Shown here piece by piece: positions 1,584-21,330 of a stretch of DNA of 38,189 bases (positions are counted from its first letter, which is position 1; each line of letters opens with the position of its first letter). Origin of the DNA: Bacilli bacterium (GTDB taxonomy: Bacteria; Bacillota_I; Bacilli_A; ML615J-28; CAG-698); assembly GCA_028693535.1 (NCBI GenBank), contig JAQUVC010000003.1:1-38189 (forward strand), in the 5' to 3' direction. The translations under genes and the position numbers were made by a program. The notes beneath the pieces were generated by a model. It was not told where the DNA came from. It did no database searches and worked only from the letters and a program-made list of their open reading frames with translations.

Positions 1584-1610
1584 GAAAAAAAGACCTCAAA
1601 TTGAGATCTT
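1584..1610 (-). terminator. Intrinsic terminator of nrdJ
   Basis: On the minus strand AAGATCTC pairs with GAGGTCTT (one wobble) around a 5-base loop and runs into seven T. The hairpin begins at the stop codon. Confidence 0.8.
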
Positions 1611-4150
1611 TATAAACCACATTTTAATTGTGCATTACAGTTAGTACATGTGTTACAGCCACCAATGTCTTCAACAACACCTTGAAGGCAGATAGGACAA
1701 ATATCACCAACTTCAACACCAATGTTACGATTTGCTTTGGTGTTGGCAGGATTAATTTCATCTTTCTCTTTTTCAACTTTGTTCTCTTGAATTTCAATAC
1801 CCAAATCAGATAATTCAACTTGTTTTGGAAGATTATCTTCTTTCTTCAATGTTAAGACTTGAGTATCACGGCTGCCATCAACATAGACAGTTCCACCTTT
1901 GGCTTTTCCTTTGTATAAGCGTAAATATAATTTTTCAACATCTTCAACAGTGTAGCCTTTCGGGGCATTAACTGTCTTAGAAATCGAAGAATCAACCCAA
2001 CGTTGGATGATACATTGCACATCAGCATGTTCATCAGCTGATAATTCCATTGCGGAAACAAAAATATTAGGTAGATGTTCATTATCATATTCCGGATGAA
2101 GTTTGATGTAGGTATCAACAATAGGAGCATTAACTTCCATAAATTTACCTAGACGACCACTACGATAGTATTTGAAAGCAAAGTATGGTTCAAGACCTGT
2201 TGATACACCCACCATTGTTCCGGTAGAACCTGTTGGAGCAATCGTTAATAAATGGGAGTTTCTAATTCCATATTTTAAAATGTCTTCTCTAATTTGCAAT
2301 GGCATTTTTTTCATATAGCCAGTCTCTACAAACTTAGCACGAGATCCATATTGATCTAGGAAAGGAAAACTTCCTTTTTCTTTCGCTAGGTTGATAGAAG
2401 CATTGTAGGCATTTGTTGCAACAAACTCAAATAATTTATCAACAAATCGATTTGCTTTTTTGCTGCCATAAAGAAGATCGCAATAGATGATTAAATCATG
2501 TAGTCCCATAACACCAAGACCAATTCGTCTTTCTCCTAAAGCTTGCGTTTTGTTTTCTTCTAAAAAGTAGGTCGTGCGATCAATAACGTTATCTTGCAAT
2601 CTTATTGCAACATCGATAGTCTTTTTTAGTTTTTGCCAATCGACATCCTTGGTTTCAAGATTTGCCATATTAGCAAGATTAATTGCTGCTAGGTTACAAA
2701 CAGAATATGGTGCAAGTGGTTGTTCTCCACAAGGGTTTGTACATACTACTTGTTGGCCATAAGCTTTTGCGTTAGTCATATCATTGGCATTATCAATAAA
2801 GAAGATGCCTGGTTCGGCTGAATAGGTGGCACAAATATTTATTAAATTCCATAACTCTTTGGCTTTAAAAGTTTTATACACCTTAACGCCATATCCCATT
2901 TTTTCCCATACGCGTACATCACCAATGTCTGACCACTTTTGATTGTATGCTTCTTTTTGACCAGGGTTGTAATTATCAATATCTGGGAATTTTAGCTGGT
3001 ATTCTAAGTTGTTTTCAACGGCATACATAAATTCTTTTGTGATTGCAACAGAGATGTTTGCACCAGAGAGAAAATCAGGATTATTCACTTGATATTTACC
3101 ACCAATAGAAAGTACTTCTCGAGCTCTTTCTAAAGTAGCTTTGCTTACAGTACCAGGATGAGTGCTTTCAATATCAATCAAGGCCTCATATATTTCTGTT
3201 TCTTCATTTGATAACGGAATAAATTTTAACTTGTTTTTTGCTTCACGAATGATATCTTCATCTGTAAGGTTATTTATTAAGAACTGTAATATTTTTGGGT
3301 TTTGCATTTTACTAATGATAAATTCGATAATATCAGGGTGCCAATCTGCTAACATTATCATTTGTGCACCGCGGCGAGAGCCACCTTGTTCAACTAAATG
3401 AGTTAATTCTGATAAATCATGTAGCCAACTTACCGAACCACTTGATTTTCCATTAACTCCTTTCGCAAGTGAGTTTTTTGGTCTTAATGTTGAGCCATTT
3501 GTACCAACACCACCACCACGAGACATAATTTCCATAACTTGTTGACGGTGAATACTAATGCCGCCACGTGAATCATGAATAAAAGGCATTACGAAACAAT
3601 TGAAGTAAGTAACAGAGCTATTAGAACCAGCACCGAATAAGACTCTTCCTGCTGGAACAAGGTTTAACTCGGAAAGTTCATGATAAAAATCAGTTACGAC
3701 TTCCATCTTTTCTCCTTGGCCTAAATTATTTGCTAAGCGATGACAAATTTGTTCAAAAAATAGCTCTAAAGGTTTGTCAACTTCATTTAAATGACGTTTA
3801 ATAACTCTCTTTTCATCAATGTCAAGACACATTCCAGTATATTCTTGCTCGACTTCAATATATAAAAAACCAGATTCATAATCGATTTCTTTGATGTATC
3901 CAATTCCTCTAGTTGGAAATTTTGGGTCATCTTTTACAATACAGACAACAACATCACCAATTCCTATTGAACTATGATTGATATCTTTTTGGGCATAGCG
4001 ATCTAGTAAAACCAATCGCGATACTCCCGTAAAAGTCATATGCATTTTTTCTTTATCAATTAAAAATAAGTGGGGAAAAAAATTCCTTATGTCATTATTT
4101 AACTTCTCAATAATATGGTCATTATAGAAAACTCTGTCTACATTGTTCAT
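1610..4150 (-). CDS. nrdJ: Adenosylcobalamin-dependent (class II) ribonucleotide reductase
   Basis: This 846-residue protein reduces ribonucleotides to deoxyribonucleotides using a thiyl radical generated from adenosylcobalamin, so it works with or without oxygen. The signature 'TNPCGEQPLAPYSVCNLAA' places Cys474 and Cys485 eleven residues apart, the family spacing for the thiyl and one redox cysteine. The other redox cysteine is probably in 'VTYFNCFVMPF'. 'APTGSTGTMVGVSTGLEP' is the phosphate-binding loop region. The C-terminus (about 817-845) has paired CxxC motifs typical of NrdJ tails that re-reduce the active site. The start at 4150 has AGAAAGGA eight bases upstream. No riboswitch precedes it; the B12 riboswitch in this window serves the transporter at 17702 instead. 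It is divergent from the operon starting at 4367. Confidence 0.96.
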   Translation of the reverse strand: MNNVDRVFYNDHIIEKLNNDIRNFFPHLFLIDKEKMHMTFTGVSRLVLLDRYAQKDINHSSIGIGDVVVCIVKDDPKFPTRGIGYIKEIDYESGFLYIEVEQEYTGMCLDIDEKRVIKRHLNEVDKPLELFFEQICHRLANNLGQGEKMEVVTDFYHELSELNLVPAGRVLFGAGSNSSVTYFNCFVMPFIHDSRGGISIHRQQVMEIMSRGGGVGTNGSTLRPKNSLAKGVNGKSSGSVSWLHDLSELTHLVEQGGSRRGAQMIMLADWHPDIIEFIISKMQNPKILQFLINNLTDEDIIREAKNKLKFIPLSNEETEIYEALIDIESTHPGTVSKATLERAREVLSIGGKYQVNNPDFLSGANISVAITKEFMYAVENNLEYQLKFPDIDNYNPGQKEAYNQKWSDIGDVRVWEKMGYGVKVYKTFKAKELWNLINICATYSAEPGIFFIDNANDMTNAKAYGQQVVCTNPCGEQPLAPYSVCNLAAINLANMANLETKDVDWQKLKKTIDVAIRLQDNVIDRTTYFLEENKTQALGERRIGLGVMGLHDLIIYCDLLYGSKKANRFVDKLFEFVATNAYNASINLAKEKGSFPFLDQYGSRAKFVETGYMKKMPLQIREDILKYGIRNSHLLTIAPTGSTGTMVGVSTGLEPYFAFKYYRSGRLGKFMEVNAPIVDTYIKLHPEYDNEHLPNIFVSAMELSADEHADVQCIIQRWVDSSISKTVNAPKGYTVEDVEKLYLRLYKGKAKGGTVYVDGSRDTQVLTLKKEDNLPKQVELSDLGIEIQENKVEKEKDEINPANTKANRNIGVEVGDICPICLQGVVEDIGGCNTCTNCNAQLKCGL

Positions 4151-4348: not shown

Positions 4349-4366
4349 AATAATGAGGTAATGAAT

Positions 4367-7300
4367 ATGACTAGAGACATTGTAGCCAACTTAAAACTAT
4401 CATCTAACAACCTGCATTTAAAAAGCATATTTAATACAGAAGCTTATCTCGAATTGGGTAATGTTGATTATGAAGCTCTAGAGAAGTTGCTTAATTATGA
4501 AATGATTAATATCAATGAAATTACTGATTTTGCGATTCAAAACATTGGCATCGGACGAATGAATATTCAAAATGAAGAATTAAATAATAAGATACCATAT
4601 CTATTCTTTAAAAATATTGCTGACAAAGATAAATTAAAACAACTATTTATCAGCTATGGTATTTTGAAATACGAAAACAATGACAATAAAGAAGTATTTA
4701 TGCCAATCGTTTTAATACCAGTCGATATCATCATTGTAGAAGAAAATATATATTTTCAATTGTTAAATTCACCAATTGAAAATCCCCTATTGTTATCTAC
4801 GTTAACTGAAATTACAAAAAGTAATATTATATGGAATAATAAACTAGATAGTGTTTTTGCTATTGATCAATTTTGCATGAGTTTTATGCGTAATGAAGAG
4901 TTTAGCGTGATACTAGAGAACTATCTAACCTATGGAAATGTTAGGAAGAAAGATGTTTTACTTGATTTTTCAAAACTAGAAAGAAATAAAGAAATAGAAA
5001 ATGAATTATCGGATAAATTATACTCACCCAATTTAAGTGATTTATATTATTCTTTACCGCTGAACAAAACACAAAGAGAAATTTTAATCAACTCACGTTT
5101 AGGAAAGAGTTTTTCCATTGTTGGTCGTGTTGGGACAGGAAAAACAACAGTCTTGAAGGATATTATGATAAACACGGTGAATCAAGAAAAGCGGGTTTTG
5201 TTTATTTCTGATATGGAAGATACATTAACAGATATCTTAACTTCTATGAAACAAAAAAATATGGACAACTATATTGCTAATTTGTCACAGCCGTTTGCAA
5301 GTTTATTGGCTACTAACATTGAGACGATTTCTGATAGTAATTTCTCAACAGATGAACTAAAAGATGATTTGTTGAATCATTATCAGAAATTAAAAGAGTA
5401 CGAAATTGCAATGAATGGTAGAATAGCCAATTTTCAATACTTAGAGATAATCGATGAACTTATTAAATTTCACGATTTACCATCAGAAAAAATAGAAATA
5501 GATAGACTAGATGACTTATATAAACATGAATATTTTTCTATCAAAGAGAGTTTAGAAAAGATTCAAACAGCCTTGGGAAAGATAGATAATTTTAAAGAGA
5601 GCATTTGGAAAGAAATTCCTATTCTTAATAATGTAAAATATCCAAACCAAATCATAACTTTAATTTATCAAATTGACCGCTGTTTTAGAACTTTTTTTGA
5701 AGAAAAGAATTCTTTTGAAACTAATTTTGGAATCAAGAAAATTGAAAATTATGCGATGTTGAAGAATGTTATTTATTACTTGGAAAATTTAGATATTGCA
5801 TTGATACCAGATAGTTGGGTGGAAGAAACTCTAAAGGTATTCAAAGAAGCACAAGTTGAATACAAAAATTTAAAAAGCGAAATTCATAAGATACAAGAAA
5901 TTAATTATTACATTAACCATAGATACGTTAATCTTGAAACGATTAATATTGACAATGAGATTACAACAATTTTTCAAAACTATTTTAGTGTAAATGAGTT
6001 ACATTATATTAATAATCTAAATGCTGATCGTAAGAATGTAACGATTAAAATTAACAAAGGAGCAATTCAACAGGAAATCTTTTTTAAAACGCTTGAAAAA
6101 ATCTTTACTTTTTCTAATTGGGAATTTTGGAAAACAGGTGAAGGATATGATGAAATAATTAGATTTACTGATTATATCAGCTCACACAAGATTAATCGGA
6201 AATTTGTAAATGTCATTGTCAATAATCAATATGATTCATTTATTGGTAAATTAAATAAACTTACTGATGGTATTAATGAATCAAAAGCAATTGTTGATGA
6301 TTTTCAAGTAAGATATCCAAAACTAACAATCAAAGAATGTTTTATGGCATTAAAAAGCATTAATGATGCTAAAAAAATCGAGTCTAATAAACTTAAAAAC
6401 AAGACTCTTAACAGCATTAGAAAAAGGTTTGATAATATTAAAATTGATGAATTGGTTGTTAGAATAGAAAAGTTTATTGAAGCATCACATCAGTTTAAGA
6501 CCCTAAAAGAACAATACTTTAATCTAACAAAAGTAAAATATGATAGTAGTAATGATTTATATGGAGAACTTGATGCACTAAAAGAATATTTCGTTAAGAT
6601 AGGTCGATACGAATATCGAGGATTTATCACAAAAATGCTGTATCGTCTGGCAGAAAAAGAAGTAGTTGCAAAAGAGGATTATGACCGGGTTCTAAAAACA
6701 TTTTTGATGTATAAAAAATCGTATCTAGAATTGCTAGATTTACTGAAGGATTTATTAAGATATCATTTGGTAGTTCCAGGTAACAATGTATATGAAAAAA
6801 TCGATAATTTAAACAATGTTTTTGAATATATTCAAAACTTATACTTTTCTAATGACCGTATGTTATTTCTCATTAGGACAAGAGAGCAGGATTATATTCA
6901 AGCAGAAACATATTTAGATATTCGGGATACACTAAATGAAAAGAATAAATATATCAATTACTTAAATAGTAATGAAAAGTACAAATGGCTTTTTGGTAAA
7001 CTATATAATAATGCCAATACAGATGTTCAATTGATTTCGAAAGTAATGCAGAGTTTTGATGCTTATGTAAATTGCTTTGTAAATCCCAATTTCTTTGTAA
7101 ATAGTATTAATGTAAAACGACATGCGTTGCTTGTGACACACATTAACAATTGCAAAGAGATTAGCAATGCTTTGACGGAAATATTTAAAATGTATTGTAA
7201 GATTTTTAAAGATGGTATTTCTCGTTATTATTATAGTGATTTTGAAGAGACAATAGAATATACCAATAAACTATTAAACGCGAAAGAAGAATTGTTACAT

Positions 7301-8680
7301 TACTTAGCAATAACAGATGGAATTGGTATATTAAATAAATTTAAACTTGGTAAACTGATTAAGCACGTAATAACGACAAAAAGAAAGAACAAATTAGTTG
7401 ATGATTTTTGCTCTGTTTATTTACAGGAACTAAAAAACAGATATCTTGCAACCAATCAAATACTAATTCAAATTGTGGATATAAATGCATATTTACAGGA
7501 AACAAGTCAGCTTGAAGCAAGTTTAATTGCTCATGAGGGTGAGAACATTTTAAGTGATATTTGGGAGTTTAGCCTTCATCGCCTAAATTTAAATGGAATT
7601 AAGCATTTAGATTATCAAGGCTATATTCGCCGAACAAAGGGAATAAAGCATATTTTTCTTGGTAGTACAAAGTTAGTCGACAAGTATATAAATGCAAATG
7701 ATTTCGATTTGGTTATTGTTGATGATGCGCATATTCCAAGTTCTAATTTACAGTTTTTGTCACAAATAAAAGCACAAGTTATTATCTCTGGTGAATATCA
7801 ACTACACGAGTCAATTTCAAACAACTTAATTTCGATTATTAGAAACACACAAAAGTTTTATCTTGACTATCGTTATTCATTAACTCCTAAAGGCTTAATC
7901 AATTTTATGGAAGGTCAAAGGGGGCTTTTCCACAATCATTATTCAAGAAACATCGGTCTTGAAATAATTGAGAAAAAGGTAAATGATTATATCTTGGAAT
8001 TGTTTGTTAATGATGAAAATGTAAAGATTAACTATTTTATTAAAGATATAATTAAGCAACAAGCAACTTATCAGGAATTGGCAAAAGCATTAAGCAAAAG
8101 CGGTTATAATTTCTTACAAATATATAAGTTTTTACTAACTAATCTCAATATTAGCGATCTTGCCAACGCATATCATATCAATGCTGACTATAATATTCTT
8201 GATTATGAAGACTATTATATGGTTGATGTTGATTATATTTATGACAATATGCTAGATAATCTTTTGTTGTGTAGAAAAAAGATTATTATTTACGATAGTA
8301 AAAAAATTCTACTGGAAGAACAAAACTTTAAATTTGCTATTGGCTTAAAAAAAATTCTTGATGGTCGGGATCAAATTTTCTCGCAAGAGTTTGGTGAAAG
8401 TAGTAAAGAATTACTAGTTCAAGAGATAGCAAAATATGGCTATGAGGTTTATGCAAATAATGGCAATGTAAATTTAATCTTAAGGAAAGAGGATAATTTA
8501 TATGGAGTAATGATTTTATTTGACGATATTAACCGAATAGAGGTACTGAATATTTATCGTGATAAATATTACACTAATGTTAATAAGGGTTGGAAAATAG
8601 TAGTTCTTGAAAAAGTTGTTTTTACAAAAGGCATCGATTATGCAGCGAAAAAAATTGTTGAGGCAATAAGTAATGATTAA
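4367..8680 (+). CDS. Very large degenerate SF1 (Upf1/DUF4011-like) helicase with a decayed nuclease-like C-terminus
   Basis: The protein has 1437 residues if started at ATG 4367, which is correctly spaced from GAGG at 4355; ATG 4361 is too close. A P-loop 'GRVGTGKTT' sits near residue 253. The next SF1 motifs come only near 1119: 'LVIVDDAH' (motif II), 'IISGEYQL' (motif III, usual GDxxQL) and 'LDYRYS' near 1168 (motif IV region). About 860 charged, largely helical residues separate motifs I and II. A recognisable motif V (QG-E) is missing, and motif VI survives only as 'LLLCRKKIIIY'. The last 110 residues resemble the REase-like domain (MTES_1575 type) of DUF4011 helicases ('GYEVYANNG', later 'NKGWKIVVLEK'), but the expected catalytic Asp and Glu/Asp are replaced ('NLILRKE', 'GVMILFDD'). 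ATP binding is plausible, unwinding and cleavage doubtful. It overlaps the ankyrin gene by 8 bases. Confidence 0.7.
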   Translation: MTRDIVANLKLSSNNLHLKSIFNTEAYLELGNVDYEALEKLLNYEMININEITDFAIQNIGIGRMNIQNEELNNKIPYLFFKNIADKDKLKQLFISYGILKYENNDNKEVFMPIVLIPVDIIIVEENIYFQLLNSPIENPLLLSTLTEITKSNIIWNNKLDSVFAIDQFCMSFMRNEEFSVILENYLTYGNVRKKDVLLDFSKLERNKEIENELSDKLYSPNLSDLYYSLPLNKTQREILINSRLGKSFSIVGRVGTGKTTVLKDIMINTVNQEKRVLFISDMEDTLTDILTSMKQKNMDNYIANLSQPFASLLATNIETISDSNFSTDELKDDLLNHYQKLKEYEIAMNGRIANFQYLEIIDELIKFHDLPSEKIEIDRLDDLYKHEYFSIKESLEKIQTALGKIDNFKESIWKEIPILNNVKYPNQIITLIYQIDRCFRTFFEEKNSFETNFGIKKIENYAMLKNVIYYLENLDIALIPDSWVEETLKVFKEAQVEYKNLKSEIHKIQEINYYINHRYVNLETINIDNEITTIFQNYFSVNELHYINNLNADRKNVTIKINKGAIQQEIFFKTLEKIFTFSNWEFWKTGEGYDEIIRFTDYISSHKINRKFVNVIVNNQYDSFIGKLNKLTDGINESKAIVDDFQVRYPKLTIKECFMALKSINDAKKIESNKLKNKTLNSIRKRFDNIKIDELVVRIEKFIEASHQFKTLKEQYFNLTKVKYDSSNDLYGELDALKEYFVKIGRYEYRGFITKMLYRLAEKEVVAKEDYDRVLKTFLMYKKSYLELLDLLKDLLRYHLVVPGNNVYEKIDNLNNVFEYIQNLYFSNDRMLFLIRTREQDYIQAETYLDIRDTLNEKNKYINYLNSNEKYKWLFGKLYNNANTDVQLISKVMQSFDAYVNCFVNPNFFVNSINVKRHALLVTHINNCKEISNALTEIFKMYCKIFKDGISRYYYSDFEETIEYTNKLLNAKEELLHYLAITDGIGILNKFKLGKLIKHVITTKRKNKLVDDFCSVYLQELKNRYLATNQILIQIVDINAYLQETSQLEASLIAHEGENILSDIWEFSLHRLNLNGIKHLDYQGYIRRTKGIKHIFLGSTKLVDKYINANDFDLVIVDDAHIPSSNLQFLSQIKAQVIISGEYQLHESISNNLISIIRNTQKFYLDYRYSLTPKGLINFMEGQRGLFHNHYSRNIGLEIIEKKVNDYILELFVNDENVKINYFIKDIIKQQATYQELAKALSKSGYNFLQIYKFLLTNLNISDLANAYHINADYNILDYEDYYMVDVDYIYDNMLDNLLLCRKKIIIYDSKKILLEEQNFKFAIGLKKILDGRDQIFSQEFGESSKELLVQEIAKYGYEVYANNGNVNLILRKEDNLYGVMILFDDINRIEVLNIYRDKYYTNVNKGWKIVVLEKVVFTKGIDYAAKKIVEAISND

Positions 8681-9251
8681 ACGAGGAGACAAGAAAAAAT
8701 TCAAAGAATTTGTTGATACAGTGAAACAAGATCCTCATCGTTATTTCTATATTAAAAGTACTCTTGCAAAATTGAAGGAAGAAGATATTGATGTTAGTAC
8801 ACAAGGCTATTTGGGGCAGACATTACTTCATGTGGCTTTAAAATTAAATGATATTAAGTTATTTAATCTATTTATAAAAGCTGGTGTAAATATGAACATT
8901 GCCAATGAATATGGCGATACCCCCCTCCATAAAGCAGTTAACGAAGGGAAAATAAAGTTTATTAGAAGTTTGGTGAACAGCGGGTGTGATTTAAATATTG
9001 GTGCTTCGCAAGAACAAACTCCACTTCATTTAGCAGCGTTAAATGGCAATATTGAAATAGTTAAATATTTGGTTGAACATGGTGCCGATATTGATATGTT
9101 AGATGAGGTTAATTGTTTACCTATTGATTATGCAATTGAAGAAAAAGATGAGAAAATGATTCGCTATTTTATGAATAAACAAGAACTAGATCAAGAAAGA
9201 AAAAATCAAATTGACTTGATGTTAAGTAGAGAGGGTGAAAAAAATGTTTGA
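8673..9251 (+). CDS. Ankyrin-repeat protein
   Basis: This 192-residue soluble protein has a charged N-terminal helix region (1-47) and four ankyrin repeats at about 48-80, 81-113, 114-146 and 147-172. Repeats 2 and 3 carry the classic 'TPLH.A' and 'LV..G.D' pattern; repeat 4 is degenerate ('CLPIDYAI'). Ankyrin repeats are protein-binding scaffolds, and no catalytic domain is present. It has no signal peptide. The ATG lies inside the end of the helicase gene (8-base overlap), and the stop lies inside the start of cdaA (8-base overlap), so its synthesis is probably coupled to both. A structural or regulatory partner of the helicase-like protein or of CdaA is an inference from this arrangement. 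Confidence 0.85.
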   Translation: MIKRGDKKKFKEFVDTVKQDPHRYFYIKSTLAKLKEEDIDVSTQGYLGQTLLHVALKLNDIKLFNLFIKAGVNMNIANEYGDTPLHKAVNEGKIKFIRSLVNSGCDLNIGASQEQTPLHLAALNGNIEIVKYLVEHGADIDMLDEVNCLPIDYAIEEKDEKMIRYFMNKQELDQERKNQIDLMLSREGEKNV

Positions 9252-10044
9252 TAACTTTATTGAGATTTTATCAGAATATACCAATGAGTTTAGCTTTTTG
9301 GGGATTGTTAAAGCGGTACTGGATTTATTATTAGTTGTAGGATTGTTAATTGCATTATATTTTTTAATTAAAAAGCGCATAAAACCGAAAAAAATTGTCT
9401 TTGCTCTGTTTATTTTCTTGCTTATATATCTACTTACTATTTTGTTTGATTTGAGAATGATTGGAGCATTGATTAGGGTTTTTGCCTTTTGGATGATTGG
9501 ATTATTTATCATTATTTATAGTCAAGAAATTAGAAATATTTGGGAGGCAGTTTTTGTTAAGTCAAAGGTTGACAATGCATTCTCTTCGGTTCAAGAAAAG
9601 CAAATTATTATTAATACTATTGCTCAAACCGTAGATTATTTATCAAAGCGTCATATCGGTGCTTTGATAACATTTGAAAGAGAAGATAGTTTGAATACAT
9701 TTATTGAAAAAGCAATTCCGATTAATGCGATTATTACGCAAGAATTGCTTACAACCATTTTTACTCCTGGAACAGCTTGTCATGATGGAGCGATAATCAT
9801 TCGTAAAAATAGAATAATGTGTGCGGGAGCGTATTTTCCATCCACTGATAAGTATGATATTCCCAAGTCTTTTGGAACGCGTCATCGAGCAGCGATTGGA
9901 ATTAGTGAAAAATATGATGCTTTAACTATAGTTGTATCGGAAGAAACAGGAAATGTCTCAATAACAATTTCTGGAGTAATCAACTTAGAGTTAACGAGTG
10001 AAAGGCTAAAAGAAATACTAGATCAATATTTAGTAATCAAGTGA
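9244..10044 (+). CDS. cdaA: Membrane diadenylate cyclase CdaA (c-di-AMP synthase)
   Basis: The enzyme joins two ATP into c-di-AMP at the membrane, a messenger controlling K+ and osmotic balance and wall homeostasis. ATG 9244 has GAGG nine bases upstream; the in-frame GTG at 9235 abuts the GAGG and is unlikely. The 266 residues have three N-terminal membrane helices (roughly 18-42, 48-68, 70-93), a linker helix, and a DAC domain with 'DGA' at 181-183, 'RHR' at 213-215 and 'SEETG' at 232-236, the catalytic and ATP-binding signatures. In many Bacilli cdaA is followed by cdaR and glmM. Here it follows a helicase-like and an ankyrin gene and ends in a terminator, which is unusual. Confidence 0.95.
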   Translation: MFDNFIEILSEYTNEFSFLGIVKAVLDLLLVVGLLIALYFLIKKRIKPKKIVFALFIFLLIYLLTILFDLRMIGALIRVFAFWMIGLFIIIYSQEIRNIWEAVFVKSKVDNAFSSVQEKQIIINTIAQTVDYLSKRHIGALITFEREDSLNTFIEKAIPINAIITQELLTTIFTPGTACHDGAIIIRKNRIMCAGAYFPSTDKYDIPKSFGTRHRAAIGISEKYDALTIVVSEETGNVSITISGVINLELTSERLKEILDQYLVIK

Positions 10045-10050
10045 CAATGG

Positions 10051-10079
10051 GATTTAAGGGGAACCTTAAATCTTTTTTT
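10051..10079 (+). terminator. Intrinsic terminator after cdaA
   Basis: GATTTAAGG, loop GGAA, CCTTAAATC: a perfect 9-bp stem followed by seven T. It closes the helicase-ankyrin-cdaA operon. Confidence 0.92.
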
Positions 10080-10538: not shown

Positions 10539-12110
10539 ATGTTAGAAAACATTGTAAATTTTATTATCCAAAAGCAAAATGACATAGCAATTTTAGCATT
10601 CATCATATTAGGTCTTTTGTACATATCAACAATTGTGATTTTTAAAAAGCTTCCAATTATTGAAACACTAATCATTTTATTATCGGTTGGATTGGCTTTT
10701 TTCACAAGATATTTAACTAGAGAACTAATAGTCACTTTGTTGGGAATTAATTTGATTGCTTGGGCGGTAGTCGAATTGGTTTTTGCTTGCTTATTAATAT
10801 ATGTTATCATTTTGATACGAGCACAAAATTACAAAAACAAAATGCGGTTTTATGAATTAACTCCGTCAAATATTGAAAGTAACATCTATGCTTATTTCAA
10901 TAAAAAATCAAAATTGTTAATGTTTACCGATCAATTTTATGATATGTTACCTAAAAATTATAAGAACAAGAAAAAATGGTATCGTCTGGTAAAGAGCATC
11001 GTTTGCGATGGTGAGACAATGTCATATAAGAAATTTATGAACCATTTGCGTGATTTTGGTGAAAAAACATTTAATATTGAAATCACCTTCAATGATTTTG
11101 CTTCAATAAAAGAAGAAGTTGCTAAGGCAATGATTAATGAGAATGGAAAATTACGGGGTTACTTATTATATAATCAAAAATTGACACCTGCTCAATTATA
11201 TAAAGATAGTATTATGAAGGAATATGCTTCCCATTTGTTTAATTTCTTTGATTCATTAAATGAACCATTGGCTTATTATGATAGTGCAAATGGTAATTAT
11301 ATTTTAACTGATTTAATGAAAAAAGCACTGGGAACCAGCGATGCTGTTATTACGACTGATGGCTTGTTAAATTATATTGTTGAAGAAGATGTTGCTAACT
11401 ATAAACGTATGCTAACGCAAAAAGAAGGCAGTAACACTTATTATTATCGTTTAAAAACAATAAATGGGATTGAATGGTTTGAAGAAACTAGAACAGTTGA
11501 AGGAATGTATATCTATAACATCATTCATTGGGCAAAATTTACACCGCGACAAATGAAGTATTTGCCTAAAGAAGCACTAGAAAATGAAATTAAGAACAAT
11601 CAAGAAAGCAACCGTAGTTTTATTTTAGTGTTTATAACATTAAAGAAAATAGCTAGTTATGCTGAGAAATTGGGTAAAGATGTTGCCAATGTGTTAGCAG
11701 ATCGTTATTTTGCACAATTGACATCAATTAAGATGAATCAATCTCGTGTTTATAAATTATCTAATGTTGATTATTGTTTATTATTTACTGGGATAGCTGA
11801 TTATGAAAGAATTGTTAGTGAAATTAATAGTAACGTTTCTGAACTAGTGAATACGCAGGTTGTTTTTAATGGCAACAAATATCAAATGAACAATGCTTTG
11901 GGAATTGTTAAGAGTGAAAGTGTTGTTAATCCAAGTCCAGAGAGATTTATCGTTGCTGGTTATGAAGCACTATCTTATGCAACAAATCCAGATTATGGTA
12001 GACCCTTTAGTATATATCGTGAAAAACGTGAAGAACGACCTAATTATCAGTTCGACAAGTATCGTGTAGATATCAATAACGAGTTTTTATATGACAAACG
12101 AAAGATTTGA
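10539..12110 (+). CDS. Membrane protein with PAS-like and degenerate GGDEF domains (GdpP-reminiscent, no phosphodiesterase domain)
   Basis: The 523-residue protein starts with three membrane helices (about 18-36, 39-57, 66-94), followed by a long cytoplasmic part. Residues about 230-340 ('FFDSLNEPLAYYDSANGNYILTD...') look PAS-like. Residues about 370-500 follow the GGDEF fold pattern: 'ADRYFAQL...SRVYKLSNVDYCLLFTG', then 'NALGIV' and 'AGYEALSYATNPDYGRPFSIY'. The catalytic GGDEF/GGEEF is replaced by LSNVD (407-411), so cyclase activity is not expected. The combination of N-terminal helices, PAS and degenerate GGDEF recalls GdpP/YybT, which degrades c-di-AMP, but the DHH/DHHA1 domains are absent. 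Proximity to cdaA makes a nucleotide-sensing role attractive but unproven. It overlaps ispD by 20 bases. Confidence 0.65.
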   Translation: MLENIVNFIIQKQNDIAILAFIILGLLYISTIVIFKKLPIIETLIILLSVGLAFFTRYLTRELIVTLLGINLIAWAVVELVFACLLIYVIILIRAQNYKNKMRFYELTPSNIESNIYAYFNKKSKLLMFTDQFYDMLPKNYKNKKKWYRLVKSIVCDGETMSYKKFMNHLRDFGEKTFNIEITFNDFASIKEEVAKAMINENGKLRGYLLYNQKLTPAQLYKDSIMKEYASHLFNFFDSLNEPLAYYDSANGNYILTDLMKKALGTSDAVITTDGLLNYIVEEDVANYKRMLTQKEGSNTYYYRLKTINGIEWFEETRTVEGMYIYNIIHWAKFTPRQMKYLPKEALENEIKNNQESNRSFILVFITLKKIASYAEKLGKDVANVLADRYFAQLTSIKMNQSRVYKLSNVDYCLLFTGIADYERIVSEINSNVSELVNTQVVFNGNKYQMNNALGIVKSESVVNPSPERFIVAGYEALSYATNPDYGRPFSIYREKREERPNYQFDKYRVDINNEFLYDKRKI

Positions 12111-17419: not shown

Positions 17420-17444
17420 GTCAGTATAAGAAAATTTATAACTA

Positions 17445-17648
17445 TCGGTTGCATTTGATGCATTAATAGGGAATATGGTGAAAAACCATAGCAGCCCCCG
17501 CTACTGTAAGAGAAGAGCATAAATCAATGATAAAGTCACCATGTTTTGGGAAGACGAGATTGTATGCGATGACGCTTGAGCCAGGAGACCTGCCAATAGT
17601 GATGAATAAACTCGTTTCGGTGGGAAATGACGGTTGACAGGCAATTGT
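17445..17648 (+). ncRNA. Adenosylcobalamin riboswitch (B12 aptamer)
   Basis: The leader contains the conserved cobalamin core: 'CGGTTGCATTTGATGCATTA' near its start, 'AGCAGCCCCCGCTACTGTAA' at about 17490-17509, and the B12 box 'GAGCCAGGAGACCTGCC' at 17578-17594. Adenosylcobalamin binding to this RNA class represses downstream transporter or biosynthesis genes. An intrinsic terminator follows at 17653, so control is probably at transcription. It is the only leader between the TetR terminator and EcfT. Confidence 0.93.
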
Positions 17649-21033: not shown

Positions 21034-21055
21034 GGTTACAATAATATAAGTAAAT

Positions 21056-21330
21056 GCCATGAGCAGAAACAAGTAGCTAATGATTTAGTTTCTAGAGAGT
21101 TATCATTTGGTGTAAGATAATGACTAAGTATTTGTGAAAATCATTCTGTTAGCAGTCGTCTGAAAAGAAAAGATTTCTATTAAGATGGAACGTTTGGTAA
21201 GCGTTAAAATACCGATAGTGTGTTTGCACTATCGCCAAGCCGATTGTTCAAGAAGGACAATAAGAAGAGTGGTACCGCAGAAGCTTTAAGCCTTTGTCTC
21301 TTATAAAGATGGGGCTTTTTATTTTTTCTC
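21056..21330 (+). ncRNA. T-box leader (branched-chain amino acid tRNA sensor) of the liv operon
   Basis: The T-box sequence 'GAAGAGTGGTACCGCAG' (21264-21280) is unmistakable. Stem I starts with the ATGA k-turn element and the loop-E AGTA at 21072-21075. GCTAA (21076-21080) pairs with TTAGC (21149-21153) and CAGA (21064-21067) with TCTG (21159-21162). This leaves AGTCG (21154-21158) as the specifier side, best read as GUC (Val) followed by a purine. AUC (Ile) at 21140-21142 is the alternative reading. GGACAA (21255-21260) can pair with TTGTCT (21294-21299) in the antiterminator. Binding of uncharged tRNA would prevent termination and turn on uptake. Confidence 0.93.
21288..21330 (+). terminator. 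T-box attenuator terminator
   Basis: AAGCCTT pairs with GGGGCTT (with wobbles), an inner TCTT pairs with AAGA, and a T-rich run follows. The left arm includes the bases needed by the antiterminator, so the two structures exclude each other. Confidence 0.8.

Follow-up and report, generated by a model that had tools for sequence, protein, structure and literature searches.

In Bacillota, CdaR and GlmM are encoded together with the diadenylate cyclase CdaA, form a complex with it and regulate it; GlmM inhibits CdaA by blocking the active head-to-head oligomers of the diadenylate cyclase (DAC) domain (PMC8573169). Another diadenylate cyclase, DisA, is bound by RadA/Sms, which blocks its activity (PMC8645862). 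What is known of the control of CdaA comes largely from Bacillus-like hosts, and the locus described here carries another fixed gene set, in an order of Bacilli where CdaR is nearly absent. This order includes metagenome-assembled genomes (MAGs) labelled Acholeplasmataceae, Acholeplasmatales and Anaeroplasma bactoclasticum. The Anaeroplasmataceae and their related families have been described as mostly peptidoglycan-deficient, albeit with mixed predictions (PMC10868615).

The window, i.e. the whole stretch of 38,189 nucleotides that was analysed, comes from a MAG of 1.24 Mb. It contains three genes arranged head to tail on the plus strand (Table 1), encoding a large helicase-like protein (HEL), an ankyrin-repeat protein (ANK) and CdaA. 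An earlier reading of the sequence alone had described an overlap of exactly 8 bases at each junction and a single terminator closing the three genes, and both features could be confirmed. The second overlap has this length given the ATG start of cdaA, which is preceded by a good Shine-Dalgarno sequence (AGAGAGG); with the longer reading frame from the GTG it would be 17 bases. Among relatives an overlap of 8 bases recurs often without being fixed, and some junctions overlap by tens of bases whereas others leave a short gap. HEL, ANK and CdaA are probably co-translated. The evidential value of the terminator lies in its position rather than in its occurrence, since about one terminator per 6 kb is expected by chance; the next gene, mgsA (10174), is preceded by a separate TATAAT-like box.

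Table 1. Features of the HEL-ANK-cdaA locus (positions in the window)
Feature	Position	Strand	Basis
HEL, 1439 aa, degenerate SF1 (Upf1-like) helicase-nuclease homologue	4361..8680	+	ORF; alternative start 4367
DUF4011-like N-terminal segment of HEL, aa 90-170	4628..4870	+	hhalign block; weak Pfam match PF13195, aa 69-128
HEL Walker A GRVGTGKT, aa 255-262	5123..5146	+	motif census; present in 36/36 order members
HEL insertion, all helical, separating Walker A from Walker B (aa ~330-1085, about 750 aa)	5348..7615	+	AlphaFold2 secondary structure
HEL Walker-B-like DLVIVDD, aa 1116-1122	7706..7726	+	motif census; DE in the canonical family
HEL degenerate RecA2 and REase (MTES_1575)-like C-terminus	7928..8677	+	alignment, motif census; AlphaFold2 pLDDT 90.5
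ATGATTAA, HEL stop / ANK start, 8-base overlap	8673..8680	+	sequence; relatives compared
ANK, 192-aa ankyrin-repeat protein	8673..9251	+	Pfam Ank; one orthologue per genome
ATGTTTGA, ANK stop / CdaA start, 8-base overlap	9244..9251	+	sequence
CdaA, membrane diadenylate cyclase	9244..10044	+	TIGR00159, PF02457; ORF open from GTG 9235, ATG 9244 the likely start
DAC catalytic domain with DGA and RHR motifs	9625..9975	+	motif alignment
Intrinsic-terminator-like hairpin and T-run, 5 bases past the cdaA stop	10049..10074	+	

As had also been noted from the sequence, cdaA lacks its usual neighbours cdaR and glmM here. No glmM could be found in the cdaA operon at this locus, where mgsA and the genes for a GGDEF-like protein, IspD and IspF follow downstream, and searches for CdaR (PF07949) came back empty for the window genome and for 41 of the 43 genomes of the order. 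The matches in the remaining two (G017 and G039, both MAGs of higher contamination) lie on other contigs than cdaA. Since CdaR is lacking in the order but for these two MAGs, HEL and ANK are the best candidates for the control of CdaA there. The narrower idea that they have replaced CdaR is weakened by other families of the class, which lack CdaR as well as HEL and ANK.

The ordered trio is strongly conserved. HEL was found in all 43 genomes of the window's order and ANK in 41 of them; in a second order of the class ANK was present in four of four genomes, with HEL adjoining in each (4/4). A total of 44 loci were read, 41 from the window's order and three from the second, and HEL, ANK and cdaA lie on one strand and in that order in 41 of the 44. 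The exceptions are two loci without ANK (genus g14) and one where the contig ends after ANK. HEL identity at the conserved loci goes down to about 16%. This conservation is far beyond chance, and it is virtually certain that the chain is real and conserved. At a single locus (L054, genome G012) HEL is in two pieces of 773 and 562 aa, reflecting a frameshift or an assembly error.

In a class-wide sample of 247 genomes, 222 of which contain a DAC protein, full-length HEL matches were confined to three families from these two orders, and ANK orthologues to the same three families (score gap of 146 versus 110 bits). Neither HEL nor ANK orthologues were found away from cdaA in this sample or among the loci read, contig ends aside. 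The sequence-only reading had proposed a functional link of both proteins to CdaA, which would fail if the trio were not conserved. As the trio is order-wide and recurs in a second order, and as the orthologues are not found apart from cdaA, a functional tie is likely; the accompanying suggestion that damaged or foreign nucleic acid is sensed is not supported in the form proposed, as discussed below.

Other families of the class have cdaA without HEL or ANK (20 loci), and two of these loci (L164 and L166) show the same nrdJ-cdaA neighbourhood as the trio loci, which looks like the state without the HEL-ANK insertion. Large genes upstream of cdaA in families f18 and f22 were considered as HEL candidates and rejected, as they encode YfhO membrane proteins. 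The neighbours nrdJ, mgsA, ispDF and the gene for the GGDEF protein come and go while the order of the trio persists. Family tree analysis of CdaA places the trio cyclases of the window's order in a single clade (support 100), and groups the cyclases of the second order with trio-less ones (support 80), which calls for either an early gain that was later lost in places or an independent acquisition.

At 19 of the 44 loci, the gene immediately preceding HEL, in the same orientation, encodes a ClpC-like protein of 550-660 residues (8, 9 and 2 in the three families; e.g. L035:12694-14649, L055:8042-9982 and L123:11872-13794, and 16 further loci). It has a Clp_N domain and two AAA modules, the first intact and the second without Walker A in nearly all proteins checked. 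The gene is likely a fourth member of the module, and is absent from this place in the window's genus. The ancestral order was likely nrdJ (opposite strand), clp, HEL, ANK, cdaA, mgsA, the gene for the GGDEF-like protein, ispD and ispF. In the window nrdJ, encoding a B12-dependent ribonucleotide reductase, lies at 1610-4150 on the minus strand, divergent from HEL; roughly one third of the related loci have it close to the trio, and in other families it also stands beside trio-less cdaA. A membrane protein with a weak GGDEF match is encoded at 10539-12110, downstream of cdaA with mgsA in between. In several further families of the class, cdaA is followed by similar proteins of about 500 residues, of the PAS-GGDEF type, and this type of protein could be a more widespread neighbour of CdaA than HEL and ANK. 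Elsewhere in the window, a cobalamin riboswitch (17429-17611; 112.5 bits) and a T-box leader (21050-21304; 110.8 bits) could be identified.

The cyclase of the window scores 202.4 bits against TIGR00159 (cut-off 188.8), which covers residues 17-263 of 269 (model positions 3-247 of 254) and thus the N-terminal transmembrane part, where three hydrophobic stretches can be seen by eye within residues 17-100. It matches PF02457 with an E-value of 3e-39. With only 28 bits against the DisA model (cut-off 201) it is not of the DisA type, and it is the only DAC protein of the window genome. In an alignment of 38 CdaA sequences D184-G185 and R216-H217-R218 are invariant, and A186 is present in at least 90%; CdaA is apparently an active cyclase. 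A c-di-AMP riboswitch was found in nine of the 43 genomes of the order, one of them in the window's genus, which suggests that the c-di-AMP signal is used. DHHA1 matches are also present in the window genome.

A surface on CdaA specific to the trio was sought, and only six alignment columns differ, without a clear patch. Among these, R139 corresponds in the alignment to the leading arginine of the KRRIGAL stretch of Bacillus subtilis CdaA, by count the GlmM-contacting R126 (PMC8573169). Most trio cyclases of the window's order retain this arginine and those of the second order do not, a pattern that as yet proves nothing about a partner surface. Covariation of evolutionary rates amounted to 0.6 for ANK and CdaA, 0.3 for HEL and ANK, and about 0 for HEL and CdaA. 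This series was considered as evidence for interaction in the chain order HEL-ANK-CdaA, and was set aside as unspecific, the control pair CdaA and IspF being nearly as strong (0.5).

Searches with single HEL sequences yielded only weak matches, to DUF4011 (Pfam), PDC-S37 (PADLOC) and ProA (NCBIfam). Comparison of a profile of 36 HELs with one of 12 DUF4011-type reference proteins (hhalign) gave a probability of 100 and an E-value of 3.9e-42 over residues 90-1438. Two of the reference proteins were scanned and have the domain order DUF4011-AAA_11-AAA_12-MTES_1575, with PADLOC PDC-S37 scores of at least 1000 bits. Judged from these profiles, HEL is a full-length degenerate relative of the DUF4011-SF1-REase (MTES_1575) helicase-nucleases known in PADLOC as PDC-S37/Hhe. 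An AlphaFold2 model of residues 240-1439 (pLDDT 85.7) resembles Upf1-like SF1 helicases, i.e. senataxin, Aquarius and IGHMBP2, in Foldseek searches. The C-terminal 250 residues retrieve mainly helicase-type RecA folds, all of them weak and none with an E-value below 0.001. The long insertion between Walker A and Walker B is also a property of the canonical DUF4011 family.

The motif census shows which parts have been lost. Walker A is intact in all 36 full-length HELs of the window's order, and Walker B carries DD throughout except for DE in one; D1116 and D1121 are invariant. Motif V (QGDERD) and motif VI (TRAK; TRA[KR]) are absent from all 36. Among the 12 reference proteins nine have all four motifs, one has TRAK without motif V and two are degenerate. 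The acidic nuclease residue is also lost, as IDLA...IExDG of the family aligns with VNLI...MILFDD of HEL. In the four HELs of the second order (1285-1367 residues where complete) Walker A has gone as well, with the gene slot unchanged. We are highly confident that HEL has degenerated. From what is known of the family, loss of these motifs would mean loss of activity. As motifs V and VI and the nuclease site are absent in all, and the ATP-binding motif in the second order too, HEL is unlikely to be a conventional translocating helicase. An active-helicase reading was rejected on this census, and a nuclease reading on the missing active acid together with the mainly RecA-type matches of the C-terminus. 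The simplest reading of the motif loss is that HEL would be a scaffold or switch and not a motor, and loss of motifs with retention of the gene fits a scaffold role. A 1380-residue DUF4011-type protein without Walker A also occurs in MAGs labelled Thermotogae and Petrotoga (L101:4677-8819 and L103:2224-6366), with no DAC gene adjoining; it is an independent degenerate member of the helicase family.

ANK is characterized by several invariant residues (P84, H86 and A88; L118-H119; E145; D152-Y153-A154). Its last repeats carry a conserved signature of E145, N147, DYA 152-154 and E157, which could be a contact face. ANK is not indispensable, because two genomes of one genus (G015 and G024) have lost it and keep HEL beside cdaA. 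At the loci L049 and L050 (genus g14) a spacer of 57-60 bases between HEL and cdaA stands in place of ANK, and the sequence ahead of cdaA is promoter-like (TTGCAA...GATACGAT), as though the gene had acquired a promoter of its own. Among the papers searched, none combined 'ankyrin' with 'diadenylate cyclase'.

We give about even weight to the proposal that CdaA is regulated by a lineage-specific complex of its partners HEL and ANK, much as it is by CdaR and GlmM in Bacillus. HEL would be descended from a DUF4011-SF1-REase helicase-nuclease, most likely being neither helicase nor nuclease now: in the window's order it could at most bind ATP as a scaffold or switch, and in the second not even that. 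ANK would likely link HEL, as an adaptor, to the cytoplasmic DAC domain of CdaA. Such a physical complex, with ANK as bridge, may affect cyclase activity and set the output of c-di-AMP by favouring or preventing the association of DAC domains head to head, which GlmM blocks in Bacillus. The adjacency of the trio, its restriction to these families while cdaA is far more widespread, the loss of motifs with the gene kept, the invariant motifs of CdaA, the near-absence of CdaR, the precedents of CdaR, GlmM and RadA/Sms, and the c-di-AMP riboswitch speak for this regulation; against it stand the loss of ANK in G015 and G024, the unspecific covariation, the position of the second-order cyclases in the CdaA tree and the missing surface on CdaA. 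More tentatively, a tamed defence-type helicase-nuclease, dead or reduced to an ATP-only switch, might with its ankyrin adaptor (and a half-dead ClpC-like ATPase in many relatives) control the sole diadenylate cyclase of two orders.

Regulation of CdaA has to be weighed against the rather unlikely alternative that HEL and ANK are a separate housekeeping pair, e.g. an ATP-dependent scaffold in nucleic-acid or membrane biology, co-transcribed with cdaA without contacting the cyclase. The metabolic genes mgsA and ispDF share the neighbourhood, direct covariation between HEL and CdaA is lacking, and HEL evolves fast for a protein found in every genome (its mean distance in the tree is 3.1, that of CdaA 1.8); yet the adjacency of the trio outlives all others in the region, down to the lowest HEL identities and in two orders, and the orthologues do not occur without an adjoining cdaA, contig ends aside. 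The sensor of the sequence-only reading, in which an active helicase detects damaged or foreign nucleic acid and signals through ANK to CdaA, could draw on the SF1 ancestry of HEL, the retained Walker A in the window's order and the precedent of RadA/Sms and DisA, a helicase controlling a diadenylate cyclase (PMC8645862). Given the missing motifs V and VI, the lost nuclease acid and a second order without Walker A, it has become improbable; HEL may bind nucleic acid without translocation. An anti-phage module with c-di-AMP as alarm signal is more improbable still. Its attraction is that the closest canonical relatives of HEL are listed defence candidates (PDC-S37, Hhe), but HEL occurs in every genome of the order in a housekeeping-like rather than patchy manner, no evident effector gene adjoins, and CdaA is the sole DAC protein of its genome and so probably a housekeeping enzyme. 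Nor is the ancestral family all defence, as one of the core flanking genes of Pseudomonas aeruginosa is of the DUF4011 type (PMC10250203).

The trio suggests a new mode of c-di-AMP control in little-studied, mostly wall-less bacteria, and whether HEL and ANK control CdaA is a question that can be reduced to three purified proteins. If they do, this would be a clear case of a helicase-nuclease family turned signalling scaffold and a pseudoenzyme relay for c-di-AMP, of which two stages are extant in related lineages, one half-degenerate with the ATP site retained, the other more degenerate with that site lost.

Among known systems, the PDC-S37/Hhe helicase-nucleases (DUF4011-AAA_11-AAA_12-MTES_1575) share with HEL their domain order, a similar size (about 1,450-1,500 residues) and the long insertion that separates Walker A from Walker B. 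HEL differs in having lost motif V, motif VI and the nuclease acid, in having DD and not DE in Walker B, and in being fixed beside cdaA and universal in its lineage. Helicase-related proteins without working helicase motifs are known elsewhere, i.e. PriA of Deinococcus radiodurans (PMC4504706) and Utp25 (PMC9539457), from families that are unrelated to HEL and have no link to a cyclase. The pair of RadA/Sms and DisA likewise joins a helicase-type protein to a diadenylate cyclase (PMC8645862), but DisA is soluble and DNA-binding whereas CdaA is membrane-bound without a DNA-binding domain, and RadA is an active RecA-type helicase whereas HEL, a relative of SF1, has neither motif V nor motif VI. 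The cdaA-cdaR-glmM operon differs from the locus in the window, where CdaR is lacking and the neighbours, a degenerate helicase and an ankyrin protein, lie upstream and not downstream; the likeness is that of a housekeeping membrane CdaA with dedicated, co-encoded regulatory partners (PMC8573169).
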